From contig JAGVBT010000009.1 in the NCBI GenBank assembly GCA_020059605.1, forward strand, positions 1 through 64,000: DNA of 64,000 nt, written 5' to 3'. The DNA is from Deltaproteobacteria bacterium. GTDB taxonomy: Bacteria > Desulfobacterota > BSN033 > UBA1163. The translations under genes were made by a program, and so were the position numbers. The notes under the pieces are model-generated. The model made no database searches. It saw only the letters and a list, made by a program, of their open reading frames with translations, and was not told where the DNA came from. Positions 46,456 to 64,000 of the stretch are shown here, piece by piece (position 1 is the stretch's first letter; each line of letters begins with the position of its first letter).

Positions 46456-49400
46456 GAACCAAGCTAATGGCCATTATCTCTCACGAGGAACTGATCATCT
46501 TGGGCTCCTCGGGGCCAAATTAAGAGACCTTCGCGGTTTTGCAACCCTAGGATACGAACTTATTCAAAATGCTGATGATGCTTTTAGGGATACGGAGGAC
46601 GCAATTGGAGCTACCGAAATATCCTTCGATGTTAGGAAGGACGCTCTGATCGTAGACAACAATGGCGTTTTTAGCGATTGTGGACAGGTTGAAGATCCAT
46701 TGTGCCCCTGGAAAGAGGATCCAAAGTTAAAACATCGGTGTGACTTTCATCGCTTTCGCCTAGTCGCCAGCGGAGACAAACGTGAACAAATTGGAACGAC
46801 GGGAGCATTCGGCATAGGTTTCATTGCTGTTTATCAAATAACTGACTGGCCGGAGCTAATTTCCAGGGGTCGCCACTGGGTTCTTGAAGAGGACCAACCT
46901 GAAGAACGGCGGATAAAGGTTTGCTCTGGTTGTAGTTTATGCCAGGGTTCGGAGGTTCCGGGAACACGGTTTATACTCCCTTGGGCACAAAATCCAGAGA
47001 GTTTTTTAAGGAAGGCACTTCGTGCCGAAATTATCTCTCGTGACGATCCTACTAAGTTAATTCAAGAATTGGAAAAGACCTTCCCAACCGCAATCCTTTT
47101 CTTAAAGCATCTAAATCGGATAGATATTAGAAAAGATGGCAAGCTTTGGAGACGAATTGAACGTATTGAAGATGGAGACGACTTAATCATAAATGACGGA
47201 ATCAAAGATCAAATATGGCATTTGTTCCGTGGCGACTTCAGAAAGGAAGCTGATCAACTAATTAATATTCATCAAGGCCGCATTGAACCAAAGAGGTCGC
47301 CCTCTGTTACTTTAGCCATACCCGCCGCTCCCTTGGATAAAGGCCTCTTGTGCGCAGTGTTACCAACTCAACACGAGACCGGTCTTCCATTCCATATAAA
47401 TGCTGATTTTTTCCCGTCATCCGATCGAAAGAAGATCATTTTTGAATCCGACTATCAATCAGAATGGAATCGCGCGGCAATCAAAGCTGGCGCCGAAATC
47501 TTTCAAATCTCCTTGGATCGACTTAGAAATCTTCTGGACCATAAACGACTGTGGAAAATAATTGATTCAATACGGAAAGTCGCCTCGGAGGCGGAGAAGG
47601 GCCAAGGAGAAAGATCATTTAGTTATTTTTGGGAGAAGGCGTCCAACAATATTGGAAAGAAGCAGATCTTTTATACAACGCGGAATGAATGGAGAACTGC
47701 ATCGGAAGTTTTGCTTTTCTCTGAACCGGAGGAGGAAGAGGCTATCCCCCTTTGTGAAGGGATGGGGGTTTCACTTGTTCATACTGATCTACGGCCTTAT
47801 TTCAGTTTGCTTCGCTCTATCGAGATAGGGGTCCAATTACTCGATATTCCCCATATCACAGAGGGCTTAAGAAAGTTTGGGCTTAATAAGCGGGTTGACT
47901 TATCCCGGCTCCCAGGTCTGTTGCGCAAAGAGACACAATGTCAAATTCTCTGGCGTGAATTAGCGGTTCTTCTTAAGAGGCGTCGAAATTATCAGGAACA
48001 ACAACGGCTGGAGCGAGATCTTTCGGCTTGTTCGATTGCTCTGGGGCGAGACATGGCACTCTGGCCATGTCAAGAAATTTATCAAGCAGATGAAAGTACG
48101 ATAGACCTCTTCAGCAAAATTGATTCGGGAATTCCTTTTTTGAAAGACCCAGGTGAGGAGGGTGAGTGTATCAAAAAGCTTTGCAAAACGTTCTCAGCCT
48201 CTGCAGCCATTCAAATCCTGTCAAAATTTAGTGGAATCGATTTCGAAAAAGCAAAGGAAGAAGGAAGGCTTGATCCCGCGCGATTAATCCGCTGGTTCGA
48301 AGGCCGGCAAGGAGAGATTCTCAACTCCTTGGACCTAAAGCGTGCCCTTTCAGATTTGCCTATCTTCCCAACTTCATTAGGCCTCAAGTCTCTGTCAGCA
48401 CTAGCTCTCCCAGGTGATTTCAATGATCTCATAGGCATCATTGATCTTGTCGACATTAGCATCCTCGACGGTCGCCGAGAATTCTTACGAGACTTAGGTG
48501 CAAGAGAGCTAACCTTTCAGCAGTATGTTTCCAGCTACATTCCTCTCGCTTTCAACAATTCCGGTGTTCCACCCGAAAAGAAACATGCGGTTGTCCGCTT
48601 AGTGGCAGAACAACTTGGTAAGATTCGAGATTTTCCGGATATCCAGGAGAATTTAACTGGCATAGATATCATTGAATGTGACGACGGCAATTTTCGGAAA
48701 CCCAACGATGCCTACCTAACTCCTCAAGTAAAAGAGATCCTTGGCTCTGATATACCAATAGCCGTAATTCCTAAAGAAAATCCAGAATCGATTCGCGAGT
48801 TTTATCGGTGGCTTGGTGTATCGGAAAAACCTCACCCGTCTGATATATTGATGAGAATAGACCGCATAATCAGGAATTCACCATCAACCGATGGGGTTAA
48901 GGACATCCAGATTATAGTTTCCCATCTCGGAGAGCGATTTCGGGAGGATACTTTTCCAAGAGAGGTAATGTCTCCATTACGTTCGATGGCATGGCTGCCC
49001 GTCAGAGGTGATTTAGATCAATGGTTCGCACCTAACAAAGTCTATGCTGATTTTCAGAGTTATCTTTTTGAGACTCAGGGAACATTTCTTGATTTACCTC
49101 ACAAGGTACAAACCTCTTGTGTGAACCTTTTTCAGTTCTTGGGTATCAACGATAAGCCAACACCATCCCATGTAGTCGCGCATCTTATCAAATGCATGGA
49201 ACTGAACGAACCTGTTAATAAGGAAGTGTACAGATTTCTAAACGACAATTGTCAGGATAAGACCATTGCTCCACTAAGACATAAAGCCTGCCTTCTTCTG
49301 CCATCAGGCATATATGTCAAACCATCAGAAGTATTTTGGAGCGATCATCCTTTTGGAGGATTCAGATATAAGCTATCGCCGGATTTGCGGAGTTACGGAA

Positions 49401-50881
49401 GCTTGTTTGCGGCTCTTCAGGTAAGAGAAAATCCTGATCAGCATGATGCTATTGAAGTCATAATGGAAATCTCCTCAATATATGGGTCGGCAAATGATAA
49501 GCTGGATGATGATGCCTACACTATATTGATTAACTGCTGGCAAATGCTTAGCAGGACATGGGAGGAAAAGGATCCGGATCCAAGCGATCTGGAGGAATTC
49601 CGAGATCGAAAGGTCATTCCTGATATTCGACATGTACTAAACCCTCCGGATTGGATATTTTTTGAAGATCGGGCCGGACTTCCCGCCAAATTTGGCGATT
49701 ATCTCAAGAATAATGTTATCCCAAAGCCACAGACTGCATGGAGAGCTATGGCTGCGGCGGGAGTTCGAACACTTAGTAATGCTGTAAAAGCGAACATGGT
49801 AGAGTGCGAGGACCCAATAGAAGATGACCTGGTGCTCAACCGTTTATTGGAGCGACGGAGGTTACTTGCCAGAATTTTTGAGACACAAAAAGGAGAGATG
49901 ATTCCCAAATATGAGATCCTTGACAAATTGAGAGTTGTTTCTGCAAAAGAGATCAAGATTCAATACATATTAAACATTTTTAAAAAAGAGCTTAGTAGTG
50001 CAGTAGAGCCTGTCCCGTCACATTTTAGCATTGATGATCTAACGTTGTACTTAGTGAAGCGAAACGGCGGTGTCCCCTGGGCTGCTATGGGAAGAGAACT
50101 GGCGTTGGCGTTGTGTCCATATGGTGAGCCAGGTCAGTTTGCGTCGGGAATAAAGGAGGTTCTCTCTGCTGAGACTCAAGAAAATGCCAACAGACTTCTA
50201 GATGAATTGGGATTTCCGCTTGTAGAATCCTCGCCCCCCCCGATAGGGGATGGAGGTTATGTAAAAGAATTGGGTGGGGGCGAAAAACCTGATGGAGGAT
50301 TAGAACCGTTAACTCCTGGGGAGGCAATTGAGAAAATGCTAGGCGGCGTACCCCCTCGACCTTCTGGTATGCCGGAAGAATTGGACAAGTTAAGTGGTGG
50401 ACCTGATTTAGGTCAAGGTACTGATCATAAACGGAAAAAACAGCGGGGAAAACTTCGAACTTATGTCTCTACTGAAGGGGCAGAAAAGGAAGGTAGCGTG
50501 GATCACCCTGATGAAAGAGACCCAGTCGACAGACATGGTGTGAATCACGTTTTGGAATACGAACGTGATCGCGGCAGATATCCGGAAGAGAAGCCATTTC
50601 ATTTTCCTGGTTATGATATCGAGTCGAAGGATTCAAATGGGAATATCGTGAGGTATATTGAGGTTAAAGCAACCTCGGGTGAGTGGGGGTCCCTTGGAGC
50701 TGCTCTATCTAAGCCTCAATTCACCAGAGCCATGGAACTGGGAGATAAATACTGGTTGTATGTCGTCGAATGTGCTGGGCAAGAAACTTATCGAATCTAT
50801 CGTATACAAGATCCGGCGGTTCGGGTAAACCAATATATTTATGACGATGGGTGGAAGGTACTGAAAGAAGAAGAAGATTGA
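46439..50881 (+). CDS. Giant sacsin-like GHKL ATPase with C-terminal DUF3883 domain
   Basis: 1480 residues from ATG 46439 (MALNLKNQANG), with a G-rich site upstream, inside the helicase end. The N-terminal HSP90/sacsin-type ATPase has the N-box GYELIQNADDAF, G1 IVDNNGVF and G2 GTTGAFGIGFIAVYQI. Unusual is a Cys-rich insertion CSGCSLCQGSEVPGTRF. About 1000 residues of unassigned helical/beta sequence follow. The C-terminus (from about 1375) has HVLEYERDRGRYPEE, GYDIESKD, YIEVKATSG and LYVVECAG, the DUF3883 domain, a putative restriction-fold nuclease or DNA-binding unit. MORC/sacsin-like GHKL ATPases are known from restriction-type operons, and its place between helicase and type III R-M genes fits. 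Confidence 0.85.
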   Translation: MALNLKNQANGHYLSRGTDHLGLLGAKLRDLRGFATLGYELIQNADDAFRDTEDAIGATEISFDVRKDALIVDNNGVFSDCGQVEDPLCPWKEDPKLKHRCDFHRFRLVASGDKREQIGTTGAFGIGFIAVYQITDWPELISRGRHWVLEEDQPEERRIKVCSGCSLCQGSEVPGTRFILPWAQNPESFLRKALRAEIISRDDPTKLIQELEKTFPTAILFLKHLNRIDIRKDGKLWRRIERIEDGDDLIINDGIKDQIWHLFRGDFRKEADQLINIHQGRIEPKRSPSVTLAIPAAPLDKGLLCAVLPTQHETGLPFHINADFFPSSDRKKIIFESDYQSEWNRAAIKAGAEIFQISLDRLRNLLDHKRLWKIIDSIRKVASEAEKGQGERSFSYFWEKASNNIGKKQIFYTTRNEWRTASEVLLFSEPEEEEAIPLCEGMGVSLVHTDLRPYFSLLRSIEIGVQLLDIPHITEGLRKFGLNKRVDLSRLPGLLRKETQCQILWRELAVLLKRRRNYQEQQRLERDLSACSIALGRDMALWPCQEIYQADESTIDLFSKIDSGIPFLKDPGEEGECIKKLCKTFSASAAIQILSKFSGIDFEKAKEEGRLDPARLIRWFEGRQGEILNSLDLKRALSDLPIFPTSLGLKSLSALALPGDFNDLIGIIDLVDISILDGRREFLRDLGARELTFQQYVSSYIPLAFNNSGVPPEKKHAVVRLVAEQLGKIRDFPDIQENLTGIDIIECDDGNFRKPNDAYLTPQVKEILGSDIPIAVIPKENPESIREFYRWLGVSEKPHPSDILMRIDRIIRNSPSTDGVKDIQIIVSHLGERFREDTFPREVMSPLRSMAWLPVRGDLDQWFAPNKVYADFQSYLFETQGTFLDLPHKVQTSCVNLFQFLGINDKPTPSHVVAHLIKCMELNEPVNKEVYRFLNDNCQDKTIAPLRHKACLLLPSGIYVKPSEVFWSDHPFGGFRYKLSPDLRSYGSLFAALQVRENPDQHDAIEVIMEISSIYGSANDKLDDDAYTILINCWQMLSRTWEEKDPDPSDLEEFRDRKVIPDIRHVLNPPDWIFFEDRAGLPAKFGDYLKNNVIPKPQTAWRAMAAAGVRTLSNAVKANMVECEDPIEDDLVLNRLLERRRLLARIFETQKGEMIPKYEILDKLRVVSAKEIKIQYILNIFKKELSSAVEPVPSHFSIDDLTLYLVKRNGGVPWAAMGRELALALCPYGEPGQFASGIKEVLSAETQENANRLLDELGFPLVESSPPPIGDGGYVKELGGGEKPDGGLEPLTPGEAIEKMLGGVPPRPSGMPEELDKLSGGPDLGQGTDHKRKKQRGKLRTYVSTEGAEKEGSVDHPDERDPVDRHGVNHVLEYERDRGRYPEEKPFHFPGYDIESKDSNGNIVRYIEVKATSGEWGSLGAALSKPQFTRAMELGDKYWLYVVECAGQETYRIYRIQDPAVRVNQYIYDDGWKVLKEEED

Positions 50882-50899
50882 TTAAGTAACAAATCATTA

Positions 50900-52762
50900 A
50901 TGGAGACTATGATGCGAAAAATTGAAATTACCAAGACCGAACTTGTCTGGCCAGGCAAGTACAACGAGAACGCTACTCTCAAGGAGGTGCCACGTGTCAG
51001 CCTCCCCTTTCAGGTCATCGAGACTGTCAACGAGAGCCGAGCGACGCGCGAAACGGAGAAAAAGCGCCAGCCCACACTCTTCGATATTTATGAGGGTAAA
51101 GAAGGTGACACTTTTGAAGAAGGTTGGAAGAACAAGCTTATCTGGGGAGATAACCTGCTGGTAATGGGTTCGCTCCTAGAAAGATTTGCAGGTAAGATCG
51201 ATCTTATCTATATCGATCCACCGTTCGCAACAGGAGCAGATTTCTCTTTTGTCACGCAAATCGGTGATGGTGATCTCGAAATAACGAAGGAGCAATCCAT
51301 CATAGAAGAAAAGGCTTATAGAGATACATGGGGGTTGGGAATAGATTCTTATCTGAATATGATGAGATCGCGCATGGAAATAATGCATGACTTACTCGCT
51401 CCGAATGGAACAATATATGTCCATATTGATTGGACAGTTGGTCATTATCTAAAGCTTGTGCTTGATGAGATTTTTGGTGAACAGAACTTTCGGAACGAAA
51501 TTATCTGGTTTTACACTAATAAGCTTGGAACCGGTGGCAATACTTTCGACAAACATCATGACATTTTACTCGTTTATGTAAATGGTCCAAAATGGACCCA
51601 CAACCCTTTAATGAGGCCGGTGAAAGTGCAAAAATTGCAACCTGTAACAAAGAAGATTGAAGGTGAGCGAGTATGGCTTCGAGATGAGAATGGTAAGAGA
51701 TTATATGAAATGAGTAAGTCGGAAACTAAAATAGGCGATGTATGGGAGATTCCATATATAAATCCGGTTGCCTCTGAGCGGCTGGGATATGCAACTCAGA
51801 AACCTGAAGCCCTTCTTGATTACGTCATACGAGCATCAAGCGACAAAGGAGAATTAGTCGCTGATTTCTTTTGTGGTTCTGGAACTACACTTGCCGTTGC
51901 CGAAAATTTGGGCCGCCGCTGGATCGGTTGTGATCTGGGGAGGTATGCTATCCATATCACTCGCAAGCGACTTCTTGGTGTCGAAAGTTGCAGACCTTTT
52001 GAAATCCTTAATCTCGGTAAATACGAACGACAATACTGGCAGGGGGTAACTTTTGGTAATAATACTAAGACCATAACAGAACAGGCCCTTTATGAGTACC
52101 TAGCTTTTATGCTTAAGCTTTATGGGGCCCAGCCGGTGGCAGGGCTTGTACATCTTCATGGCAAGAAAGGCAAGGCCATGGCTCATATTGGGGCAGTGGA
52201 TGCACCAGTGACAATTGATGAAATCAGTGCTGCTGTTGGCGAGTGTGTCCAGCTTAAACAGAGCGAACTCCATATACTCGGATGGGAATGGGAAATGGGG
52301 CTCTACGACCTGATGGTGACGGAAGCGAAGAAGCAAGGAGTGAAACTACTTCTTTTGCAAATCCCGCGAGAAGTCATGGAACAGCAGGCCGTGGATAAAG
52401 GGGATATAAAATTCTTCGAACTTGCCTACCTCGAAGTTCAAATCAAGACTCTAAAGAAGATGGCCGCACAAGTCATCTTGAAGGATTTTGTGATTCCTAA
52501 CACTGAACTGATTCCAGAAGAGGTGCGTGACAAGGTAAAAAAATGGTCCGACTATATCGATTACTGGGCTGTCGACTGGGATTTTCAGAGCGATACCTTC
52601 ATGCAGGGCTGGGTGACTTACCGTACGCGAAAAGACAGAACACTCGTCCTGACCTCCGATCCGCATCCGTACGAAAAACCCGGGAAGTATCGGGTCCTTG
52701 TTAAGGTAGTTGATATCTTTGGAAATGACACTTCTCAGGCTTTTGATGTCGAGGTTAAATAG
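50900..52762 (+). CDS. mod: Type III restriction-modification DNA methyltransferase (Mod)
   Basis: About 620 residues from ATG 50900; ATG 50912 (MRKIEITKT), with GGAG ahead, is an equally good start. The catalytic motif IV IYIDPPFATGADF is at about residue 105, and the SAM motif I VADFFCGSGTTLAVAENLGRR comes later: beta-class order for N6-adenine methylation. The middle holds the target-recognition region (GNTFDKHHDILLVYVNG). The end HPYEKPGKYRVLVKVVDIFG is a PKD-like beta-sandwich. It stands 18 nt after the GHKL gene and 2 nt before Res. Confidence 0.93.
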   Translation: METMMRKIEITKTELVWPGKYNENATLKEVPRVSLPFQVIETVNESRATRETEKKRQPTLFDIYEGKEGDTFEEGWKNKLIWGDNLLVMGSLLERFAGKIDLIYIDPPFATGADFSFVTQIGDGDLEITKEQSIIEEKAYRDTWGLGIDSYLNMMRSRMEIMHDLLAPNGTIYVHIDWTVGHYLKLVLDEIFGEQNFRNEIIWFYTNKLGTGGNTFDKHHDILLVYVNGPKWTHNPLMRPVKVQKLQPVTKKIEGERVWLRDENGKRLYEMSKSETKIGDVWEIPYINPVASERLGYATQKPEALLDYVIRASSDKGELVADFFCGSGTTLAVAENLGRRWIGCDLGRYAIHITRKRLLGVESCRPFEILNLGKYERQYWQGVTFGNNTKTITEQALYEYLAFMLKLYGAQPVAGLVHLHGKKGKAMAHIGAVDAPVTIDEISAAVGECVQLKQSELHILGWEWEMGLYDLMVTEAKKQGVKLLLLQIPREVMEQQAVDKGDIKFFELAYLEVQIKTLKKMAAQVILKDFVIPNTELIPEEVRDKVKKWSDYIDYWAVDWDFQSDTFMQGWVTYRTRKDRTLVLTSDPHPYEKPGKYRVLVKVVDIFGNDTSQAFDVEVK

Positions 52763-52764
52763 CT

Positions 52765-55545
52765 ATGGCGAAAAGTATCGTATCATATGATAAAGATCTT
52801 CCTGAAATCCCTGGGCGTTGCCCCTGGGAAAACCCCACATCGTTTCTGGTTAAGGACCCTGCGGCCCCGAATGAATGGCGAGTAGACAATTCAGGGCGCA
52901 GGCCGAGCAATCTTTTGCTCATAACTAAATTGCGTGCCGATGTAGATCAATGGCGGGCTAAGAGGTATCCGGGAGCATTCGAGGTTTCCAAACGACTTTT
53001 AGAGTACTGGTTTGAGGAAGACCATGAAATCCCCGGTTTTTCTACCCCGTTTCGTTACCACTTCTGCCAGAGGGAAGCAATTGAAACACTTATTTACATG
53101 TATGAAGTGGCAGGATATCGTGATACCAAAGATCTGATAAGGGCCTATGCTAAGGTTTTTCGAAAAGATCTTCTATCCGATTCGGTTACTTTTCAGGAAA
53201 CTATGGATGGTCGACGCCAAATCCGCCGTTTTGTTCCTGAGCTCAATTCTGAAGGAGTTCAAGATTTGCCGCCGAAGAACCTTAGACGTTATGCCTTCAA
53301 GATGGCTACCGGCTCGGGTAAAACTTGGGTCATGGCCATGGCCATTATCTGGGCACAATTTTATAAAAAGCGTGTTCCTGATTCGGACCTTTCCACAAAT
53401 TTCCTTATCATCGCGCCCAATGTCATCGTATATCAAAGGCTGGAAAAGGATTTCAGTAGCAATCAGATATTTCATGATCTACCCCTTATCCCTCCCGAAT
53501 GGCGAGGAGCATGGAGCCAGAAAGTTATTTTGAGAGGAGAAAGCGCAGACCCTGGTCCATCGGGTAATCTGTTTCTCACGAATATTCAACAACTCTATGA
53601 GGCCCGCGAACAAGAATGGACGCCACAAAACGCAGTTGATGCACTCCTTGGAAAGAAACCGATTAAGGATTTGGCTTCTTATCAACGCTCTATGCTTGAA
53701 CGGGTTAAGGACCTGAAAGATTTGATCGTCCTGAATGATGAGGCCCATCATGTTCATGATGAAGATCTTGCGTGGAGTCAATCGCTCCTGGCTATAAATA
53801 GAAATCTGCCGAAAGGACTCGCCCTTTGGTTGGATTTTTCTGCAACCCCTAAAGACCAGAATGGAATGTATTTTCCTTGGACGGTTGTAGACTGGCCACT
53901 GGCCCAGGCCGTGGAAGACCGAATCATCAAAGCCCCGATCATCGTAACTAAGGAAGACGATCCAAAACGCCCTACGAAAGATCCAGACGATGTCAAGAAA
54001 GAAAATGTTACAGAAAAGTACGCCTACTGGATTCAAGCCGCCGTGCAACGCTGGAAGGAGCACGAAAGGACCTTTAAGAAACTGGGGAAGAAGTCAGTCC
54101 TGTTTATCATGGCTGAAAAGAATGCCTTTGCTGATGTTATAGGCGAATACCTGTGGAAGACAAAAGAATTCGGGTTTAAGGAATCGGAGGTCCTCATCAT
54201 CCATACGGATGAGGCTGGGGAAATTACAAAGAAGGATCTGGAAAAGGCCCGAGAAGCAGCCCGCGATATTGATAAGCCCGAAAGTAGAATCAAGGCAATC
54301 GTAAGCGTGATGATGCTTCGAGAGGGGTGGGACGTTCGTAATGTTTCCGTTACCCTCGGGCTGCGACCTTTCACGGCAAAAGCAGAAATTCTGCCAGAAC
54401 AGGTAATCGGAAGAGGCCTAAGGCTGATGACGGGGATTGGGCCAGATACGCAGACGCTGGAAGTGCTGGGTACAAGGAATTTACTTAATGTCCTTCGTGA
54501 TCAACTCGAAGCCGAAGGCGTAGGTGTGATAACAACCAAGAGTGATCCACCAAGACCAGTCGTCATTGAACCAATAAAAGATATGCTGAGTTATGATATC
54601 GCTATTCCAATTACCAAGCCGCAACTCACCCATAATTTCAGAAATCTCTCTTTGTTCAATCCCTCCATGCTTGAAGCTATCTACGATCAAGAAGACCTGG
54701 AAGAAGTCCAACGGATAACATTGAAGATGGCCTTTGCTACCACGGAGACGGAGGTTCATCAGGCAGAGTTGACAGCGGGGTTTCTGCCTATGGCCCAGGA
54801 ACTGATAGGGTCCATCACCAACAAAGTAATCCAACACGCCAAGTTGGCTAATGTATTTGCGGAACTCTATCCTCTTGTACGGACATATGTGACCTCTCGC
54901 TGTTTTGGGAAGGAAGTTCAGGCTGAGGATGAAAATATACGTTCCCACCTTCACCGCCTTGATTTACAAGAAGGCATTGCAAAGTATCTATCAAGAAGGA
55001 TTGCGGAATTGACTATCGAGAAACGAGACCTAGAATTCGAAAAAGCTGACTTCCGACTTTCCCAAACAAAACCCTTCAGATGGTTGCGAAACCTTCCACC
55101 CCTGGAAGCAAAACGAACCATATTTAATTACGTAGCCACTTATAACGATTTTGAGAGGAAATTCGCAGAATTCCTTGATAAGGCCCAGGATGTACTTCGT
55201 TTCGCCAGTCTTGGGACAACCGAGCAAGGCGAATCTGGCACCCAATTCAGGGTTGATTACATTAAACCAAGTGGCGCGATTGGTTTTTACCATCCAGATT
55301 GGGTGGTAGTACAGAAGACTATCGAAGGGGAGGTTAACTGGATTATAGAAACGAAAGGCCGCGTTTGGGAAGGAACAGAGGCCAAAGATACGGCGATGAA
55401 TCAATGGTGCATCCGTATCACGGAACGAACAGGGCAAACATGGCGATTTAAACGCATTGACCAGTTCGCTTTCGAAGCCCAAATGCCGCGAATGTTGGAA
55501 GAGGCAACAGGTAGTCTCAAGGGGTCTTCTCGATTATTTGAATGA
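52765..55545 (+). CDS. res: Type III restriction enzyme Res subunit (SF2 helicase-nuclease)
   Basis: 926 residues. SF2 motifs: FKMATGSGKTWVMA (Walker A 181-187), LNDEAHHVHDE (DEAH 325-328), DFSATPKD (359-), REGWDVRNVSVTLGLRPF and QVIGRGLRLM (motifs V/VI). The C-terminal WIIETKGRVWEGTEAK holds the PD-(D/E)xK Glu and Lys of the nuclease domain. It translocates on DNA and cuts when two unmodified sites meet. Only 2 nt separate it from mod. Confidence 0.92.
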   Translation: MAKSIVSYDKDLPEIPGRCPWENPTSFLVKDPAAPNEWRVDNSGRRPSNLLLITKLRADVDQWRAKRYPGAFEVSKRLLEYWFEEDHEIPGFSTPFRYHFCQREAIETLIYMYEVAGYRDTKDLIRAYAKVFRKDLLSDSVTFQETMDGRRQIRRFVPELNSEGVQDLPPKNLRRYAFKMATGSGKTWVMAMAIIWAQFYKKRVPDSDLSTNFLIIAPNVIVYQRLEKDFSSNQIFHDLPLIPPEWRGAWSQKVILRGESADPGPSGNLFLTNIQQLYEAREQEWTPQNAVDALLGKKPIKDLASYQRSMLERVKDLKDLIVLNDEAHHVHDEDLAWSQSLLAINRNLPKGLALWLDFSATPKDQNGMYFPWTVVDWPLAQAVEDRIIKAPIIVTKEDDPKRPTKDPDDVKKENVTEKYAYWIQAAVQRWKEHERTFKKLGKKSVLFIMAEKNAFADVIGEYLWKTKEFGFKESEVLIIHTDEAGEITKKDLEKAREAARDIDKPESRIKAIVSVMMLREGWDVRNVSVTLGLRPFTAKAEILPEQVIGRGLRLMTGIGPDTQTLEVLGTRNLLNVLRDQLEAEGVGVITTKSDPPRPVVIEPIKDMLSYDIAIPITKPQLTHNFRNLSLFNPSMLEAIYDQEDLEEVQRITLKMAFATTETEVHQAELTAGFLPMAQELIGSITNKVIQHAKLANVFAELYPLVRTYVTSRCFGKEVQAEDENIRSHLHRLDLQEGIAKYLSRRIAELTIEKRDLEFEKADFRLSQTKPFRWLRNLPPLEAKRTIFNYVATYNDFERKFAEFLDKAQDVLRFASLGTTEQGESGTQFRVDYIKPSGAIGFYHPDWVVVQKTIEGEVNWIIETKGRVWEGTEAKDTAMNQWCIRITERTGQTWRFKRIDQFAFEAQMPRMLEEATGSLKGSSRLFE

Positions 55546-55648
55546 TTAACAAGAATACCGCGATACGGTAGACGCCGACTGTACGGCACACTTGGAAGAC
55601 TAACTCCACTTTTCTCAACCTTCCCCGTGAGGCGGATCGTTATCATCA

Positions 55649-57409
55649 ATGGGAAAGCAAACTCAGACTTCTCCGATTCTCCTTCGTTGGAATGAACATG
55701 TTCCGGCATCTGATGTCCAAGACCCCTTAGGTCTTGGACTCAGGGGATCAGCTCGCCTGGCCAGCCGCTTGCTTTACTGCATCACGTCCGTCACTCCAAG
55801 AGCGAGATATTTTTCGTTCATTCCTTGGTGTGTCTTAGACTATCGGCAGCACGAGCAAGGCAAGCCTTTCGCTTCGGGCTTGCGGGATGCAATTGTTCTT
55901 CGGGAACAGGTGCTCACCTCGGCTTGCATTGTTCACCACGGGGGAAAACCTTGCAGCGGCGGAGCGTTGGTCGGCTCACAAGGTGCCCAGAGATGGTTCA
56001 ATAGGGATGAAAAAGCTGCAAACTTCAAAAGACTGAAGTTTGCAAAGAATCCTGCTTTATCTGCCTACTTCAATTCAATTGTAAATCTTGGTTTCTTCGC
56101 CACTGAGAGCGAACTGCCGGATACCGATGAAGAGAGTAATGTCCAGGAGTCCACATTTGACGACATCGAGCTTTCTGATCTGGGCCTCGACTTGGCAAAG
56201 CGATACGACTCAGTAGTAAGCAAACTGGCTGTGACAAAGCGAATCGCAACAAAGGATCGATCAACCTCCCTGGCTAGTCTTGCTGAGTTTGGCAACCTCG
56301 GGGGCCTATGTGAACTCCCCCACAAAGGGGCCGCTGATCGCGAGCTTTTACAGAACGTCTTTTTCGCACTCGTTGCTTCGAAGGGAGATTCACACCGGAT
56401 CCGGAGGCAGTCTTTGCTCCTGATACTTGAACTCTGTCGCCAGTTCAGTACCAACCAATGGGTATCCCGTGAAACTGAGTTTGGAGGCGCAATTTACTAC
56501 GGGGAAGTTGCCAATGAAAAATATCGTCTTAATGTTGTCGTGCCCAAGCAGCTGATCGACATTGCCACCCGCTGGCGTATGTTCTACTTCCACCATTTCA
56601 TGGGAGTCGCCCTGGAAGGTCTCTTTTCTTGGTTAGTAACCCAGCTTGCCGACCATGGACTTGCAGGAACAACTGTAGAGGCCCTTATCGCCCGACTCGA
56701 CGAATCGTCTGTTAGGAAGAATCTCTCTGAGATTCTTCAAGTTAATCTGAAAGGCTCGTTTGGCGAATCGAATCCGTCGAATTCGTTTTCCAGCATCGGT
56801 TTGTCGAAAGGCGACCTTGATGTTCATTTAAGCAAGTCTCTCGATAAGACAGTGCGAAGCCTGGCTCCATTTGCTGAAGACAGCCTCGAAGACATGATTC
56901 GGAGCAAGGAACACCTGTATTCCTCCACGGGATTGGCCCTTCCCATGATCCTATTGGTGACAACACTTGCACGGTATATGCAATGGGAGGTGACTAACTA
57001 CGGGAAATGGCTTGCGAGTGCAGCGAGTGATCCCTACCTCGATCTCGTTCCACCGTTGGTCACATCGGGCCTCTCCCGACGGTTCGGCAACTGGTGGAAA
57101 TGTACTTGGAAGGAATTGGCCAGTTTTGTGGTGTCCCGATACGTTATTCTGCAACATCAATCGATGTCTTACGAGAAAACCTTTACTGGGGATCGCTGCC
57201 TTCTTCAGGTTGATGGGCCGAGGGTTGTTTCGACTGGCAATTATGATGAGATCGGCATGACTAACCCCCGTCTACGCAGTGCGCTTCAGATTCTTAAGGA
57301 CTTGGGGATGACGGAGGACGACGACGATGGAGTTACCCACCTAACGACCGATGGAAAACAATTCCTAAAGAGGGAGCTGGTGAAGGAGGCCGAAAATGAA
57401 GTTTCTTGA
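55649..57409 (+). CDS. Unknown 586-residue protein coupled to a PLD-family nuclease
   Basis: I recognise no domain. The N-terminal text LGLRGSARLASRLLYCITSVTPRARYFSFIPW is distinctive and basic, suggesting nucleic acid contact. The middle is helical (LLLILELCRQF, IDIATRWRMFYFHHFMGVALEGLF). The C-terminus (RLRSALQILKDLGMTEDDDD, TTDGKQFLKRE) looks like a winged-helix. The stop overlaps the next start by 14 nt, and the gene is 103 nt behind res. It is probably a partner of the phospholipase-D protein. Confidence 0.7.
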   Translation: MGKQTQTSPILLRWNEHVPASDVQDPLGLGLRGSARLASRLLYCITSVTPRARYFSFIPWCVLDYRQHEQGKPFASGLRDAIVLREQVLTSACIVHHGGKPCSGGALVGSQGAQRWFNRDEKAANFKRLKFAKNPALSAYFNSIVNLGFFATESELPDTDEESNVQESTFDDIELSDLGLDLAKRYDSVVSKLAVTKRIATKDRSTSLASLAEFGNLGGLCELPHKGAADRELLQNVFFALVASKGDSHRIRRQSLLLILELCRQFSTNQWVSRETEFGGAIYYGEVANEKYRLNVVVPKQLIDIATRWRMFYFHHFMGVALEGLFSWLVTQLADHGLAGTTVEALIARLDESSVRKNLSEILQVNLKGSFGESNPSNSFSSIGLSKGDLDVHLSKSLDKTVRSLAPFAEDSLEDMIRSKEHLYSSTGLALPMILLVTTLARYMQWEVTNYGKWLASAASDPYLDLVPPLVTSGLSRRFGNWWKCTWKELASFVVSRYVILQHQSMSYEKTFTGDRCLLQVDGPRVVSTGNYDEIGMTNPRLRSALQILKDLGMTEDDDDGVTHLTTDGKQFLKRELVKEAENEVS

Positions 57410-59576
57410 CTTCACGACCCTCTTCGACACCGAGCCTGCCAGTCTTGCTGTCCTATCCACGTATCAGTTGGATCCTGACTTTTTCGAACGGAGACTGCTT
57501 CGTTGTTCTACTCTAGTCAAAGCACGGAGAATTGTCGTTTTCATGGATGCAGGGCAGTGGTTGAACCTTCTTAATCAGGATGTTCCAGCACGCTTCCTTA
57601 ACCGAAGATACTTGGTGGTGCCCATACGACCATCCAAGGGCGTATTTCATCCGAAACTGAATCTGCTGATTAGGGAACAGGGTGGACAGGTCCAGTGCGG
57701 AAGCAACAACCTGACACGGTCGGGATGTTCCAGTAACCTTGAACTGCTGAATTCTTTCTCCTTCGATTTAGAAGGGGGGGACGAGGAGGCGATCCGTATT
57801 GCCCAAGAAGCGTTTACGTTCTTTAAGTACGTCTGTGCTGATGCCAAGGAGGAAACAGGCCGGATCGCTAGACAGTGGTTTGAAGAGTTGGCTGGAACAG
57901 TGCCGTGGCTTACGGCTCCCTTGCCTCAGAGCGACAACCGCAATGTCAGACTCTTACACACTTACGGAGGGAGTCTTTGGGACCGTTTGGAGACCATTCT
58001 CAACCATTCACCTCCCAATAAGTTGCTGGTCATCTCGCCCTTCTATGACCCAGACGGTGAAATGGTCAAGAGAGTCTATCAACGTTGGCCAAAATGCCAG
58101 ATCGAACTCGTTGTTCAGCAGCGGACCACAAACCTTCCGGTCTCGCCGCTGAAGAAACTTCGTAAACGGGTTAGCCTATCCGAGCTTCGCAATTCATCCC
58201 GCCGACTTCATGCCAAGCTCGTGGGATGGAAATCAGCAAATGGGACTGGCTGCCTTGTTGGGAGTGCGAACTTTACGACAGCCGCATATGATGCCAGGAA
58301 CGTCGAAACGTGCCTTTTGGTGTCCGCCGCCGCGTCCTTTGTTGAGAGTTTGTTCGACAAGCAATTAGGGACACGGTCGATTTCTTTTGAGGACTTCGAA
58401 CCGGGTACGGAGAGTGAACCGGGAACGCTTGAAGAGGAATCGATCGATATCCGATTGACATCTGCCCTTCTGACAGCGGACGGGAAACTCCGCTTAGACT
58501 ATCGTCATTGCCTAGAGCCCAAGCCAACGAGCATTCGGTTGGCGCTTCGAACACCAGGGGAACAAAGACCCCGTTCCTTTGTCACCGTTCCCAACAGGCA
58601 AAGCGGTACGGCCACTGTGACACCACCGGATACCGCGTTGCTGGATGCACATGGCGCAATATTCGCTTCCCTGGTTGCTGAAGCGGAAAACTACCGTGTC
58701 GAAAGCCCTCCGATCTGGGTGATTCAAGAAGAACGACTGACCTACGAACCAAGTGGCGAAGGAGCGTCTTCACCCAAGTTGAGAATCGAAGAAACAGGGG
58801 AGGGTCTTACCGAGTTTCTTGAGGAGATTGGGAAGCGGGATGGTGCTGCCGCAGTCATCGAATATCTCCGTCACTTGAATATTCGATTTCATGACGGCGG
58901 GGATAGACTTTTGGGTAAAAAGAGGTTTAGGCTCCGCATTCGTGACCCCTTCCATCCTGACGTTGCCCCTGAATGGCTTCTCGACGCCAAAACCGAGACC
59001 CAAAATCTTGAAGAGGCGATTTACGAATTTGTGGATCGTCACGAAAAGCATCGGCTTCGGAGGCATGGCAAAAGAGGCAACGTCAATGGCATGGAAAATT
59101 TTCTTGACATTTTCACTGCACTCATCCGTTTGCTCTATGTCTATTATTCGCGAGGAGTTGTCCACCGACCCATGTTCATCGACCGGTTGTGCAACTACCT
59201 GAAAATAGCAACAAGCGGCATTGATTTGGATGATGATTACACCGAGGGGTACTTAAGCACCGTATATGAAAACCTGGGTGGTGATACGGACTACCTCCAA
59301 GAGGTCTGCAATGATCTCAATCTTCTTGGACATCTTAGGACTGCTCTTTTAATCGTCCAAAAGGTCCGCTTTGTCCCAGGGGAGCAAGATAAGTGGGGAG
59401 AGGGCCCCAAACGCCCAAGCGAGTGCTTATCCTTCATCGCCGACAAACTAAAGAATGTGTTAAAAGATTTGGCTTTGAATGAACCGTCAAAGATAGAAAT
59501 CATGAAGGCAATGGATGAGTACAAAATGTTCTCGCCTTCGGAACTGGCCGAGTTTGAGAAAGAAATCAATTTGTGA
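57396..59576 (+). CDS. Phospholipase-D-family nuclease with two HKD-like half-sites
   Basis: 726 residues. First half-site VFHPKLNLLI (His85, Lys87) with CGSNNLT (103-106). Second half-site RLHAKLVGW (His272, Lys274) with VGSANFTTAA (289-292). Together they form a typical PLD/HKD active site; relatives include nucleases in restriction systems (for example the DISARM PLD subunit). The last 350 residues lack known motifs; from about 540 they are helical with many basic residues. It is coupled to the unknown 586-residue protein by a 14-nt overlap. No helicase partner stands within the pair itself. Confidence 0.82.
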   Translation: MKFLDFTTLFDTEPASLAVLSTYQLDPDFFERRLLRCSTLVKARRIVVFMDAGQWLNLLNQDVPARFLNRRYLVVPIRPSKGVFHPKLNLLIREQGGQVQCGSNNLTRSGCSSNLELLNSFSFDLEGGDEEAIRIAQEAFTFFKYVCADAKEETGRIARQWFEELAGTVPWLTAPLPQSDNRNVRLLHTYGGSLWDRLETILNHSPPNKLLVISPFYDPDGEMVKRVYQRWPKCQIELVVQQRTTNLPVSPLKKLRKRVSLSELRNSSRRLHAKLVGWKSANGTGCLVGSANFTTAAYDARNVETCLLVSAAASFVESLFDKQLGTRSISFEDFEPGTESEPGTLEEESIDIRLTSALLTADGKLRLDYRHCLEPKPTSIRLALRTPGEQRPRSFVTVPNRQSGTATVTPPDTALLDAHGAIFASLVAEAENYRVESPPIWVIQEERLTYEPSGEGASSPKLRIEETGEGLTEFLEEIGKRDGAAAVIEYLRHLNIRFHDGGDRLLGKKRFRLRIRDPFHPDVAPEWLLDAKTETQNLEEAIYEFVDRHEKHRLRRHGKRGNVNGMENFLDIFTALIRLLYVYYSRGVVHRPMFIDRLCNYLKIATSGIDLDDDYTEGYLSTVYENLGGDTDYLQEVCNDLNLLGHLRTALLIVQKVRFVPGEQDKWGEGPKRPSECLSFIADKLKNVLKDLALNEPSKIEIMKAMDEYKMFSPSELAEFEKEINL

Positions 59577-59740: not shown

Positions 59741-59782
59741 TTGACAAATAGCCTACCTTGTAGTATCCTACACTTTAGGATA
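59741..59782 (+). promoter_or_regulatory. Promoter and operator of the BrnT-like / Lon-RNase HIII operon
   Basis: TTGACA (59741-59746), 17-nt spacer, TATCCT (59764-59769). The -10 lies in a perfect inverted repeat TATCCTA-CACTT-TAGGATA (59764-59782). The gene starts 23 nt later. This is the layout of an autoregulated toxin-antitoxin promoter. Confidence 0.7.
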
Positions 59783-59804
59783 TACCGAACGTGAGGATCC
59801 ATGA

Positions 59805-60089
59805 ATGCGTATTGAATATCTATATTGGAAAGACCACATCGTGGATAAGATTACAGAAAAACATGGAGTAACCCCTGATGAGGTGGAAGAGGTTATCTAC
59901 GAAGGTGATCCGGAGATACGAAAATCCGGCAAGATCCGGTATCTCATATGGGGCCAAAGTTGCGCCGGGCGGTACTTGTTTATTGTTGTGGAGGAAGAAT
60001 CCCAAGGAGTTTTCGTACCGTTGACAGCGCGGGACATGACGGAATCAGAAAAGAGAGCTTTTAAAAAACGCCAAGGGTCTAGTTATTAG
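59805..60089 (+). CDS. BrnT-like toxin
   Basis: 94 residues, ATG preceded by GAGG. The family pattern is clear: ITEKHGVTPDEVEEVIYEG, then RYLIWGQSCAGRYLFIVVEE, then LTARDMTESEKRAFKKR. BrnT-type toxins have a compact RelE-like ribonuclease fold with conserved Lys, His and Arg residues. The partner gene follows after 50 nt. Toxicity is inferred from the family. Confidence 0.75.
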   Translation: MRIEYLYWKDHIVDKITEKHGVTPDEVEEVIYEGDPEIRKSGKIRYLIWGQSCAGRYLFIVVEEESQGVFVPLTARDMTESEKRAFKKRQGSSY

Positions 60090-60139
60090 TAAGCCTTACT
60101 GACCGCTCGATGGACCCTCGAACATAAAAGGAGGAAACC

Positions 60140-61216
60140 GTGAAAGCACTGAAGCTACCTAACGATAAAGATCATGAACGGTTGATTAACGAAGAGTCTT
60201 GCGAATATTGGGATGAGCATGATTCTTCTGAGATGATAGAAACCGGTGAAAGAATAAAACTTGAGATTGCAAGACCCGCATATGTTTGTGAGAGGTGCAA
60301 GTCTTCCCGAATTCGTAGACGCATAATTGATATTCCTGTTCTTCGTGGCAAAGTCGTATTGAAAAGGATGAAGACTTTTTATTGCGCGGACTGCGGAGCT
60401 TCCTCAGTAGAAGAAGAGAGTTTGAAAGAGTTGAAGGATGAATTCCGCCAGTTAGCGACGCTGGATGCCAATACTCTTTTGAGTTCTCTGAAAGAAGGGT
60501 TAACTTTTCATGATAAGAAATGGAAAGAGAAAGCAAATGAGAGAAAAGTTATTTCTATCTATTTTCCAACAAAGGAGGGAACTCCAGCAAAAGCACAGAT
60601 CTCCCTTCTTGTTTCAGATCCGCTTTATCCAAGACTACGCTCGCTGACAAGTGAAGATGCCCGCAACATGCTCGGGTTACAATATCTTGAAGACTTGGAA
60701 AGGGAAGCAAGGGGACAAAATCGCACGATCAGCCAGTATCTTAAACTCGAATTAGCCAAGCTGTTACTTGGCGATGCTTCCGGGTCTAACGTAGAAAAGG
60801 CGAGCGAAGTAAATAAGGAAGAGGATCTTCCGCCATGGATGCCAAACCTCACTATCATTCCCCGAAAAGTGGACCCGAATTATTTTGCGGATCAATCAAG
60901 CGCCCAGTACAAATTGGCTGCAAGAACAGAAGAGCGTGAAGTTTATCTTCTAGAAACGGAAGACAAGAGTTTTGTGGGGATCTTGAAGTATGATTACGGT
61001 GATGCTTCTTTGTCCGTAGATGTTGTCAAAAACGCTATCAATCTAAATGTGTTTGACGTGGAATTGTTTATGAATGACAAGCAAGTAGTAAACAGGGAAG
61101 ATTTAAGAATTCAAGATAACCGAATTCTGCTTCTTTCTGAAACAAAATATACAAGTCCAAGTGTCTCTAAAATCATAATAAGACTGAAGAACGGAGTGCG
61201 AGATGGAAGAGAATGA
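60140..61216 (+). CDS. Antitoxin-like protein fused to zinc ribbon and unknown C-terminal domain
   Basis: 358 residues from GTG 60140 with AGGAGG 5 nt upstream. Residues 10-45 (LINEESCEYWDEHDSSEMIETGE, split here by eye into the EYWDEHD motif) match the EFWDTHD antitoxin family that pairs with BrnT-type toxins. Cys50, 53, 82 and 85 (VCERC, YCADC) form a YgiT/MqsA-like zinc ribbon. A short ribbon-helix-helix-like segment (NRTISQYLKLELAKLLL) follows near residue 200. The last 120 residues are an unassigned beta-rich domain. It is far larger than a normal antitoxin (about 90). It overlaps the next gene by 14 nt. Confidence 0.65.
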   Translation: MKALKLPNDKDHERLINEESCEYWDEHDSSEMIETGERIKLEIARPAYVCERCKSSRIRRRIIDIPVLRGKVVLKRMKTFYCADCGASSVEEESLKELKDEFRQLATLDANTLLSSLKEGLTFHDKKWKEKANERKVISIYFPTKEGTPAKAQISLLVSDPLYPRLRSLTSEDARNMLGLQYLEDLEREARGQNRTISQYLKLELAKLLLGDASGSNVEKASEVNKEEDLPPWMPNLTIIPRKVDPNYFADQSSAQYKLAARTEEREVYLLETEDKSFVGILKYDYGDASLSVDVVKNAINLNVFDVELFMNDKQVVNREDLRIQDNRILLLSETKYTSPSVSKIIIRLKNGVRDGRE

Positions 61217-63545
61217 TTTCATTAGCCTTCTTACGAAACTGAAAAAGGTTCTTCGCGAGGCCTCGCTTCTCTTGTCCCTCCAAAGAGATGAAAAAAGAGC
61301 CGAATTGGACGAGTGTTTCAATAATGTCTGCCATATTCTTTTCGCTAACGACTATTACCAAAATCTCTGGGACGAAAGCGTTCTTCTGCAATTGGACAGA
61401 CTTTTCCAATTCAAGCGACCATCAGAGAAAGTGTATGGTCAGCATCTGAAGGTGATCGCAGGGCGTACCATGATTGTCAAACAGATAAATGACTTGTTTT
61501 TTCTTGCCCTTATCAACGAGATAACACCCGAAGAAGTCTGTGATAAATTAACCTCGCTTGCCAACGTTGGCGAAGCTACCCTATCAAAAATTAAGGCATT
61601 TGATCGCATACGAGAGATTAGATCGAGCAAATATTCAGTATCGGAAAAGCTTGATGCCTTTGTGGAACATCTCAAAAACGATATAGGCATTAATTTTGGA
61701 GAAAAAGAACGAGACATCAGGCAAGTTATTGCCTCCATAAAGGTTCAGGAAACTCCCGGAAGGATAAATGCTCTTCTAATTAGCACCGCAAGCAATGCAG
61801 GCATGCTGATTCCATTGTCTATTCAGCTTCGGGACGGTAGCGGTGGAATACACTGCCTTGTCTGTGGGAGCATGGAATTCAAATCAGCAATTGACAGGGC
61901 CAGACTTGCGATGGTCACCAATAACTATCTCAGAAAAACAGACGACGTCACATATTCTTTGGACGTTACTGAAGCGGAGTATAGTGGAAATTCTTTAGGA
62001 TTGGCGGCTGCTATTGGAATGTATACTGCTGCCGCCGGGCAGGCCATTGACCCTTACACAGCGTTTACCGGAAATATAAACCTTGAGGGCAGTCAGTATA
62101 AGATCATTTCTGTTAAGGGAATTAATGCAAAACTGGATGCTGCCTTACTTTTTGGATGCCGCCGTGTATTCGTTCCAAAAGAGAACACGCTGGATGTTGA
62201 TGAAAAGTTTAATACAAAATTGAAGATTATCCATGTTTCTGACATTGTGGATGTTCTTTTGAAATTGCAAGCTTCCCTTGAACCCATCATCGGGGACTCA
62301 CGCCAGGTCAAAAAGATAAATTTTTTGAAAGGTTATTGCCAAGATCGTGGATGGGACCTGGGCTCACCGGAGTCAGTTCAGGACGGGTCGCTGTTTACTG
62401 CATCGCCTCCGCATCCGCCAGAGTTGAAGGTTACAATCTTTGCCTCCGGTGCCCACTCCCCCAAGACACACCCGATAGCAGAATTTCAGGAACTGCTTAA
62501 CAAGCTTGGAGATTTGGACAAATCGACGATTCCTATTCAAAAAGTTGAGCAAACTTTTTTAATCAAGGATACTGAGCTTAAGCACCGGATAAGGGAGAAG
62601 CTGGACGGGTTGAAACCGGCTGAAATCCGAAAAGAACAATACTGTGATTACTCGTACCGGTTCGAAAATGGGAAAGAGAAAATAGCAGTAAAACAATACA
62701 CAAATGGGAAATTGCATTTGCAGGGCGTGGGAGGAGAGCTGTACAAGAACATCCTCGATATTGTGATTACTTTATATAATCTCAAATATCCCAATGCCCA
62801 GCTATCCTTGGACGACTACATAAGACATGAAGCTGAAGAGAGCTCGACCTTGAAGAGAGGATCTTTGGGGGCACCTCAAGCAAATATCCCATTCCCGCAT
62901 ATCGGAACAGATGAATCAGGGAAAGGGGATTATTTTGGTCCTATGGTTATTGCAGGGATTTGGGTGGACGAACCGATAAAAGCTAAGCTTGAGGCTATGG
63001 GAATTAAGGATTCCAAATTATTATCTGACAACCGTTGTCGAGAATTGGCGGCAAAGATTCGAGCCACATGTAATGGAAAATTTGTAGAAGTAGAATTACA
63101 ACCAGAGAAATATAATGAATTGTACGACCAGTTTAAAAAAGAGGGAAAGAATCTTAACCATCTGTTGGCATGGGGACATGCGCGGGCCATTGAGAGCCTC
63201 CTTGAGAAGAACCCATGCACCCACGCTGTAGCTGACCAGTTTGGTGATGAAAAGCTAATAATTTCTAAGCTTATGGAGAAAGGTAAGAGATTGGAACTCA
63301 TTCAAACACCGAAGGGCGAGCGGTACATTGCCGTGGCGGCAGCGTCAGTCTTAGCTCGGGATCGATTTTTAACACGTATGGACAAATTGAGCCAAGAATA
63401 CACTATTGCCTTGCCAAAAGGAGCTTCTGAAGCGGTAATTCAACCAGCCCGGCAAATCATTGACAAAAAGGGTAGTGCAGAACTGAAGAAGGTAGCTAAA
63501 CTTCATCATAAAACAACAGAAAGAATCATAGAAAAGGGAAGGTGA
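61203..63545 (+). CDS. Lon-type (S16) protease domain fused to RNase HIII
   Basis: 780 residues. 1-190: helical, unassigned. 190-355: Lon proteolytic domain with Ser264 in SGNSLGLAAAIGM and Lys310 in GINAKLDAALLFG, 46 apart, aligned to the Ser-Lys dyad of Lon (43 apart in E. coli Lon); VFVPKEN follows as in Lon. There is no AAA+ domain. 405-540: RNase HIII N-terminal TBP-like domain (VKQYTNGKLHLQGVG). 565-780: catalytic RNase HIII with GTDESGKGDYFGP (Asp570, Glu571), IKDSKLLS and AVADQFGDE, so all acidic positions are present. It should cut RNA in RNA-DNA hybrids. It overlaps the zinc-ribbon gene and precedes a TPR gene by 4 nt. Confidence 0.88.
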   Translation: MEENDFISLLTKLKKVLREASLLLSLQRDEKRAELDECFNNVCHILFANDYYQNLWDESVLLQLDRLFQFKRPSEKVYGQHLKVIAGRTMIVKQINDLFFLALINEITPEEVCDKLTSLANVGEATLSKIKAFDRIREIRSSKYSVSEKLDAFVEHLKNDIGINFGEKERDIRQVIASIKVQETPGRINALLISTASNAGMLIPLSIQLRDGSGGIHCLVCGSMEFKSAIDRARLAMVTNNYLRKTDDVTYSLDVTEAEYSGNSLGLAAAIGMYTAAAGQAIDPYTAFTGNINLEGSQYKIISVKGINAKLDAALLFGCRRVFVPKENTLDVDEKFNTKLKIIHVSDIVDVLLKLQASLEPIIGDSRQVKKINFLKGYCQDRGWDLGSPESVQDGSLFTASPPHPPELKVTIFASGAHSPKTHPIAEFQELLNKLGDLDKSTIPIQKVEQTFLIKDTELKHRIREKLDGLKPAEIRKEQYCDYSYRFENGKEKIAVKQYTNGKLHLQGVGGELYKNILDIVITLYNLKYPNAQLSLDDYIRHEAEESSTLKRGSLGAPQANIPFPHIGTDESGKGDYFGPMVIAGIWVDEPIKAKLEAMGIKDSKLLSDNRCRELAAKIRATCNGKFVEVELQPEKYNELYDQFKKEGKNLNHLLAWGHARAIESLLEKNPCTHAVADQFGDEKLIISKLMEKGKRLELIQTPKGERYIAVAAASVLARDRFLTRMDKLSQEYTIALPKGASEAVIQPARQIIDKKGSAELKKVAKLHHKTTERIIEKGR

Positions 63546-63549
63546 GAAT

Positions 63550-64000
63550 ATGGAACAGGCGTCGCCTCAAATTGACCAGATGGACGAAAAAGAATCAATC
63601 GAAAGAGCGCAGGCTTTGATTTCGGAAGAAAAGTGGGGTGAAGCGACCTCGCTTTTGAAGCCATTCAAAGAAGCAGGAAACCTTTCAAGTGATGGCTTGC
63701 ATATTCTTGCTTATTGTTACTCCCGAAGTAGAAAGTATAATGAGGCCATTAGGATCTACGAGGGGTTATGTGAAAGATTCCCGAATGAAGCGAAATGGCT
63801 TTACTTTCTTGCTTATCAATATAGGAGCAAAAAGGATGTTCAAAGTGCGATCCAAGCTTATGAGAAGTGTTTAGAACTTTCCCCGAAGTGGCTAAATGTA
63901 TTTGGGGAACTGGGACCTCTGTATGAAGAAAATGGGTCCACTGAGAAAGCTCTTGAATCCTATCGTAATGGTATCCAGACATACAAGGCCATGAAGCCAG
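63550..64000 (+). CDS. TPR-repeat protein, 3' end outside window
   Basis: 150 residues visible from ATG 63550 (MEQASPQIDQMDEKES), with GGTGAG ahead, open to the last base. Several TPR units: WGEATSLLKPFKEAG, YNEAIRIYEGLCERFP, VQSAIQAYEKCLELSP, TEKALESYRNGIQTY. Four nt follow the Lon-RNase HIII stop, so it is the next gene of the same operon. TPR proteins usually scaffold protein partners. Further domains may lie beyond the window. Confidence 0.85.
   Translation, partial: MEQASPQIDQMDEKESIERAQALISEEKWGEATSLLKPFKEAGNLSSDGLHILAYCYSRSRKYNEAIRIYEGLCERFPNEAKWLYFLAYQYRSKKDVQSAIQAYEKCLELSPKWLNVFGELGPLYEENGSTEKALESYRNGIQTYKAMKP

Follow-up and report, generated by a model that had tools for sequence, protein, structure and literature searches.

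Systems related to the locus

Several described bacterial systems share parts with a four-gene cassette that lies at the end of a 64,000-nucleotide stretch of DNA from a Deltaproteobacteria bacterium (contig JAGVBT010000009.1 of assembly GCA_020059605.1, positions 1 to 64,000; the whole stretch is called the window here). The cassette encodes a toxin candidate, a zinc-ribbon antitoxin candidate, a fusion of a Lon protease domain with RNase HIII and a TPR protein. In toxin-antitoxin-chaperone (TAC) modules, a transferable antitoxin C-terminal sequence (ChAD) binds a third component, which makes the antitoxin dependent on this third protein (PMC5105189), and antitoxins of the MqsA family are known in such modules (PMC11980606). 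CalpL combines a Lon protease with a fused nucleotide sensor; this sensor domain activates the protease and degrades its own activator (PMC11417357). Furthermore, the TBP-like N-terminal domain of RNase HIII binds DNA-RNA hybrids (PMC3710099).

The cassette would share with TAC modules, including MqsRAC and HigBAC (PMC5105189, PMC11980606), the three-part control of a BECR-type toxin. MqsA-family antitoxins occur in both, and in both an additional C-terminal region of the antitoxin is linked to the third gene and can be transferred among unrelated antitoxins, with binding presumed in our case. However, the third gene of the cassette encodes the Lon-RNase HIII fusion and a fourth one a TPR-cold-shock protein, the antitoxin tail is a domain of approximately 110 residues, and no match to a SecB-like chaperone was obtained when the operon genes were scanned with Pfam, NCBIfam and PADLOC. 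With CalpL/T/S (PMC11417357) it has in common a Lon domain lacking the AAA+ module and fused to a nucleic-acid-related sensor or nuclease, a regulator protein as proposed substrate and, presumably, a single domain that senses as well as destroys the signal; in contrast, it has neither SAVED/CARF nor an anti-sigma/sigma pair, no CRISPR link was seen, and it would set free an RNase toxin. Since SecB and SAVED are absent, membership can be claimed for neither the TAC nor the CalpL family. BrnTA and DUF4258-MqsA pairs (PMC11980606) are resembled by the BrnT/DUF4258-like toxin of the window and by two related antitoxins which pass the MqsA cut-off, but the cassette antitoxins carry the added tail and the operon runs on into a protease-nuclease and an RNA-binding gene. 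The TBP-like module and the whole catalytic domain correspond to RNase HIII (RnhC), though here behind a Lon domain; RnlA (RNase LS) also has a TBP-like module, but its HEPN toxin domain is missing from the fusion, and the Lon (S16) holoenzyme differs by its AAA+ module. Literature searches (open-access literature) returned no Lon-RNase H/HIII system, and we know of no named system like this cassette.

A conserved four-gene cassette

The window cassette consists of the following genes:

59805 to 60089, plus strand: BrnT-family/DUF4258-like toxin candidate, 94 amino acids
60140 to 61216, plus strand: antitoxin candidate, 358 amino acids, with N-terminal extension, zinc ribbon, middle region and conserved C-terminal tail
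61203 to 63545, plus strand: Lon-RNase HIII fusion, 780 amino acids, a single uninterrupted open reading frame
63550 to 64000 within the window, plus strand: TPR protein, first 150 of 437 amino acids, the rest reaching to contig position 64863

All four genes are co-directional, with a 50-nucleotide gap between toxin and antitoxin, a 14-nucleotide overlap between antitoxin and fusion and a 4-nucleotide gap between fusion and TPR gene, in full agreement with the gene content and spacing given by a first-pass annotation of the DNA. This annotation had also read the four genes as one candidate system, which co-occurrence of its members elsewhere would support. In a scan of 84,980 genomes (one per species, sensitive to close relatives only), three further full-length fusions were found, in Thermodesulfovibrionales (L002), Nitrospirae CG02 (L003) and Acidobacteria gp2 (L004). 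They stand in identical order behind a small open reading frame (98-110 amino acids) and an MqsA-family protein with zinc ribbon and helix-turn-helix (HTH), and before a TPR protein, whose gene is incomplete near the contig end in L002. Thus, the fusion is neither mostly alone nor surrounded by freely changing neighbours; toxin, antitoxin, fusion and TPR gene keep their order in all four loci (three independent lineages of a very rare family), while the flanks differ. The cassette seems to be intact in three phyla, i.e. Nitrospirota (L002, L003), Acidobacteriota (L004) and the phylum of the window's genome, and the four genes of the window almost certainly form one functional unit.

Exchange of toxin and antitoxin head

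Within the antitoxin of the window, three elements need to be distinguished:

60188 to 60247, plus strand: motif NEESCEYWDEHDSSEMIETG near the N-terminus (residues 17-36), similar to the FWDxHS motif of the CopG antitoxins that partner BrnT
60287 to 60394, plus strand: zinc ribbon CxxC...CxxC, residues 50-85
60854 to 61183, plus strand: conserved tail, residues 239-348, a predicted beta-sandwich, homologous in L002-L004

The window and L003 share 61% identity in the fusion and 65% in the TPR protein, whereas the toxins show no detectable similarity and the BLASTP alignment of the antitoxins is confined to window residues 239-348 (37%, E 7e-20); the window tail also aligns with that of L004 (30%, E 3e-12). 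The pair L003 and L004 shows the opposite pattern, with 54% identity of the toxins, 62% of the antitoxin zinc ribbon and 44% of the middle/HTH region as well as a shared operator, but 23% in the tail and about 46% in the fusion. Expressed as identical per compared residues, the antitoxin head gives 32/151 for window-L003 versus 78/158 for L003-L004, the tail 37/115 versus 27/115, and the head/tail interaction reaches a z of about 4.4 (hand calculation). Because the identity ranking reverses within the antitoxin gene, these values are best explained by a replacement which comprised head, toxin and promoter and had its breakpoint ahead of the tail. Judged by these identities, fusion and tail move together, as do head, toxin and operator. 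Moreover, a search of 513 genomes found the tail solely beside the fusion. Since the tail has been co-inherited with the fusion across the toxin swap, we consider it likely that it contacts the fusion or the TPR protein.

The window toxin reaches 24.5 bits (E 3.5e-5) against BrnT PF04365, under the Pfam cut-off of 34.5, and shares 34-41% identity with plasmid-borne proteins annotated as BrnT toxins, which adjoin CopG or BrnA antitoxins. The motif NEESCEYWDEHDSSEMIETG scores 7.7-8.5 bits in a motif profile compared to 6.4 for the best of 1000 shuffles, and in pairwise shuffle tests two of the four partners gave p values of at most 0.0025, so that its likeness to the CopG-partner motif is suggestive. 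From the nearness of the toxin to BrnT and the CopG-like motif on the antitoxin N-terminus, it seems that the incoming head brought along a piece for the recognition of its own toxin. Against a local DUF4258 profile, the toxins of L002-L004 gave only weak matches. DUF4258 genes are present in 46 of 118 genomes of the window's phylum, and at four loci of this phylum (L033, L041, L045, L052) such a gene is directly followed by one for a 75-97 amino acid CxxC...CxxC protein without HTH, i.e. zinc-finger antitoxin candidates.

The zinc ribbon has CxxC pairs at residues 50 and 82, and all four cysteines are invariant in the four loci. Against the MqsA family TIGR03830 (cut-off 61.8 bits) the antitoxins of L002 (66.6 bits) and L004 (62.2 bits) pass, while that of the window fails with 18.5 bits and a weak zinc ribbon match. 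A DNA-binding HTH is found in the L002-L004 antitoxins; the window antitoxin has no HTH match and none to the ribbon-helix-helix (RHH), BrnA and CopG families, and its middle region as a CopG/RHH DNA-binding domain was not supported. In the AlphaFold2 model of the antitoxin, fair confidence is confined to the tail, with a predicted local distance difference test (pLDDT) of about 70-86 at residues 280 to 350. The best structural match of the tail, the MATH domain of SPOP (Z 5.9), is within background and was not used.

A comparison of L002 with L003 gave ratios of non-synonymous to synonymous substitutions (dN/dS) of 0.12 for the toxin, 0.09 for the antitoxin head, 0.33 for the tail, and 0.25, 0.36, 0.22 and 0.10 for the N-terminal helical, Lon, TBP-like and RNase HIII parts of the fusion. 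Since dN/dS is below 1 in every measurable segment, all parts are maintained. The synonymous divergence (dS) itself is uneven along this cassette, 0.85 in the toxin, 0.17 in the antitoxin tail, 0.68 in the fusion N-terminus, 0.04 in RNase HIII and 0 at the start of the TPR gene, a mosaic which suggests repeated recombination inside the operon. The 99% identity of the RNase HIII domains of L002 and L003 was therefore rejected as a sign of constraint; with a dS of just 0.04, recent recombination is likely.

The Lon-RNase HIII fusion and the TPR-cold-shock protein

Four regions can be assigned in the fusion:

61203 to 61742, plus strand: N-terminal helical domain, residues 1-180, the least conserved part
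61743 to 62276, plus strand: Lon (S16) protease domain with the dyad Ser264-Lys310, invariant in all four loci
62310 to 62792, plus strand: TBP-like region of the hybrid-binding type (RNase HIII N-terminal/RnlA_toxin), residues 370-530
62901 to 63518, plus strand: RNase HIII catalytic domain, residues 567-772, with Asp570, Glu571, Asp603 and Asp678 invariant in all four loci

The N-terminal domain shows 39-42% identity between the window and L002/L003 and 26% with L004, and has no sequence match to solved structures. The Lon domain matches Lon_C PF05362 with 34.4 bits (cut-off 21.1) and aligns over its full length with A. fulgidus LonB (1z0b, E 1.4e-13). A P-loop GxxxxGK[ST] was not found in the fusion, which matches only the proteolytic domain of Lon and has no AAA+ module. 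In the following region, approximately 38 residues of the TBP-like domain are matched by PF15935 (E 1e-4 in L003, 0.01 in the window), and its first part weakly matches the N-terminus of stand-alone RNase HIII (E 0.002). The whole linker as a homologue of RnlA was not supported, as the comparison with E. coli RnlA comprised 21 columns; RnlA homology is not needed, since RNase HIII itself carries such a TBP-like module.

The catalytic domain is matched by RNase_HII PF01351 (106 bits, E 2.4e-30) and by NCBIfam rnhC TIGR00716 (191 bits, cut-off 161.2), and its alignment with RNase HIII 2d0a shows that the active-site carboxylates are kept. With 79-80% identity it is the best conserved domain between the window and its relatives. 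Stand-alone RNase HIII genes from the order of L002/L003 are 58% identical over the catalytic domain, and in a small RNase HIII tree the window domain groups with L002/L003 (support 100/99). Because a separate RNase HII gene exists in all four genomes, the fusion is accessory.

The fourth gene product contains TPR repeats and, beyond the window, a C-terminal cold-shock domain (PF00313, E 1.7e-12). The first-pass annotation had read this protein as a scaffold; with the cold-shock domain, it is probably a nucleic-acid binder and more than a scaffold. In L004 (5096-6400) the cold-shock domain is found at the end of the TPR gene in a different frame from the repeats, due either to a sequencing or assembly error or to a broken gene. 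As the domain can be traced in L004, too, it is probably ancestral.

Possible mode of action and alternatives

Our preferred explanation is a type II-like toxin-antitoxin (TA) pair under control of a two-headed protease-nuclease that is triggered by RNA-DNA hybrids; as a whole, we give this scheme a probability of roughly 0.45. In the resting cell, the antitoxin head would bind the BrnT/DUF4258-like toxin, the antitoxin would repress the promoter, and its tail would dock on the fusion or on the TPR-cold-shock protein, which might connect antitoxin, fusion and nucleic acid with each other. When RNA-DNA hybrids become abundant, for example as phage or plasmid replication primers or R-loops, the TBP-like/RNase HIII part could engage them and thereby activate the ATPase-less Lon domain, which would cleave the antitoxin at or near the tail. 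The freed toxin would then cut RNA and arrest the cell. In addition, degradation of the hybrid by RNase HIII would serve as a timer. The invariant Lon dyad and RNase HIII residues, together with the tail that followed the fusion through the swap, are consistent with this mechanism. Its parts differ in likelihood. For the release of the toxin by proteolysis we see about even odds, the RNA-DNA hybrid as the trigger is a rather doubtful assumption, and defence against phages or plasmids is somewhat probable as the main role.

Some observations weigh against this scheme. The TPR protein is an equally possible partner of the tail. The AlphaFold2 model of the fusion had a pLDDT of 47, too poor to use, and the helices at the N-terminus come from this low-confidence model. 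The toxins of L002-L004 matched no Pfam, NCBIfam or PADLOC toxin family. The comparison comprises four loci from metagenome-assembled genomes, with L002 and L003 belonging to one order. Finally, the defence-island setting expected in the first-pass annotation applies to the window locus, which adjoins such an island, but L003 has no obvious multi-system island around the cassette.

In an alternative that we regard as unlikely, the fusion and/or the TPR-cold-shock protein stabilise the antitoxin, i.e. hold and fold it via the tail in the way SecB-like chaperones act on ChAD. A phage or stress would titrate this partner away, housekeeping proteases would remove the antitoxin and thereby free the toxin, and Lon and RNase H would serve other steps. 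TPR proteins are often co-chaperones. Moreover, a C-terminal extension on unrelated heads that is inherited with a third component is the signature of TAC (PMC5105189), in whose modules MqsA-family antitoxins occur (PMC11980606). However, the operon lacks a SecB-like gene, the tail looks like a folded domain, unlike the short and disordered ChAD, and a pure holdase would not need the invariant Lon dyad.

Improbable, too, is a role of the TA pair as a mere addiction guard, which prevents loss of the cassette while the fusion and the TPR-cold-shock protein act as effector against RNA-DNA hybrids of invaders. Any TA head would serve for this purpose, which fits the exchange of toxin, head and operator, and the effector function would agree with RNase HIII as the domain best conserved between the window and its relatives; yet such a guard needs no shared antitoxin tail, and the tail stayed with the fusion through the swap. 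Quite improbable appears an accessory hybrid-processing operon for stress or housekeeping functions, in which RNase HIII, Lon quality control and a cold-shock RNA chaperone are combined with a TA-derived repressor and have no role in defence. Structured nucleic acid is a target of the cold-shock domain as well as of RNase H, and the HTH of the L002-L004 antitoxins would suit a repressor, but the very sporadic distribution, the mosaic divergence and the mobile or defence surroundings fit a mobile cassette better, and RNase HII is already present in every one of the four genomes. That an ordinary TA pair stands by chance beside an unrelated protease-nuclease operon can be dismissed, because, common as TA genes are in such islands and DUF4258 genes in the window's phylum, identical genes and order in three lineages, gene overlaps and the shared antitoxin tail contradict it.

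Returning to the hybrid-triggered protease-nuclease, we infer that the cassette is a rare, mobile and modular stress or defence unit with an exchangeable TA pair. More tentatively, and with more doubt than belief, it might represent a new class of immunity switch, in which an ATP-independent Lon protease is under allosteric control of RNA-DNA hybrids via a fused TBP-like/RNase HIII sensor that reads and erases the trigger; by cleaving a uniform docking tail of the antitoxins, the protease would free exchangeable toxins. Should this hold, a protease would read RNA-DNA hybrids as a sign of infection, and a docking tail added to an antitoxin could suffice to rewire a TA pair. Beside CalpL, this would be a second type of Lon-based immune protease, and beside the SecB-type TAC modules a second type of tripartite control. 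The natural head swap on a common tail provides two natural variants, which makes the rewiring idea directly testable.

Promoter and operator sequences

Upstream of the window toxin gene, two elements were noted:

59741 to 59769, plus strand: sigma-70-like promoter TTGACA-17-TATCCT, 10 of 12 consensus matches
59764 to 59782, plus strand: inverted repeat TATCCTA-N5-TAGGATA, overlapping the -10 hexamer, a possible operator

The promoter call is weak alone, given that two promoter-like sites were found in the region and 1.6 expected. The perfect operator palindrome of the first-pass annotation is indeed present, but 13.6% of the upstream regions contain, after shuffling, repeats with 7-bp arms and a gap of 0-8 nucleotides, and the palindrome alone was rejected as proof of an operator. 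The situation differs upstream of L002, L003 and L004, where two copies of TGTAAAATATTTTACA stand 31-34 nucleotides apart, for which chance is no explanation. Judged by this repeated arrangement, they are the real operator of these three loci; TGTAAAATATTTTACA has no match in the window.

Distribution and genomic surroundings

The fusion is very rare in the phylum samples: it occurs once among 395 genomes of the window's own phylum, and once each among 396 genomes of Nitrospirota and of Acidobacteriota. The three samples have no genome in common, so that the window's genome seems to belong to a phylum other than these two. It is absent from six other sampled genomes of the window's genus, and the samples of the L002 and L004 orders held no extra cassette loci. 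Altogether, the searches in the three phyla and the orders of the relatives returned, apart from the known loci, only two RNase HIII genes that stand alone. Ordinary RNase HII/HIII and no cassette were found in viral contigs (scanned with the fusion, the tail and the L003-type toxin), in phages, and in plasmids (scanned with the fusion, the L003 antitoxin, the tail and the L003 toxin).

The upstream flank of the window cassette is a defence island with TmtA-like, type III restriction-modification and ZacB-like genes. It extends directly upstream from 42911 to 59576, is large and co-directional and comprises a RadC-like gene, a UvrD/GajB-like helicase, a TmtA-like protein of 1500 amino acids (1448 bits), a type III methyltransferase and a type III restriction enzyme-like helicase, then two genes with a weak match to ZacA and a clear one to ZacB. 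These genes may form one composite system. Downstream of the TPR gene, a nucleotidyltransferase (MNT, PADLOC PDC-S09) and a HEPN-like gene form a pair on the minus strand at about 65449-66089 of the contig. In L003, a further small TA-like pair (93 and about 75 amino acids, 5330-5820) immediately follows the cassette, the flank continuing with a type IIG restriction-modification gene and then gyrB-dnaN-dnaA; L004 is flanked by an IS3-type transposase and an integrase. In three Chloroflexota loci (L005, 10016-11383; L006, 5059-6274; L007, 7507-8874), a short RNase HIII that lacks the TBP-like domain adjoins a macrodomain-like gene as a conserved pair.

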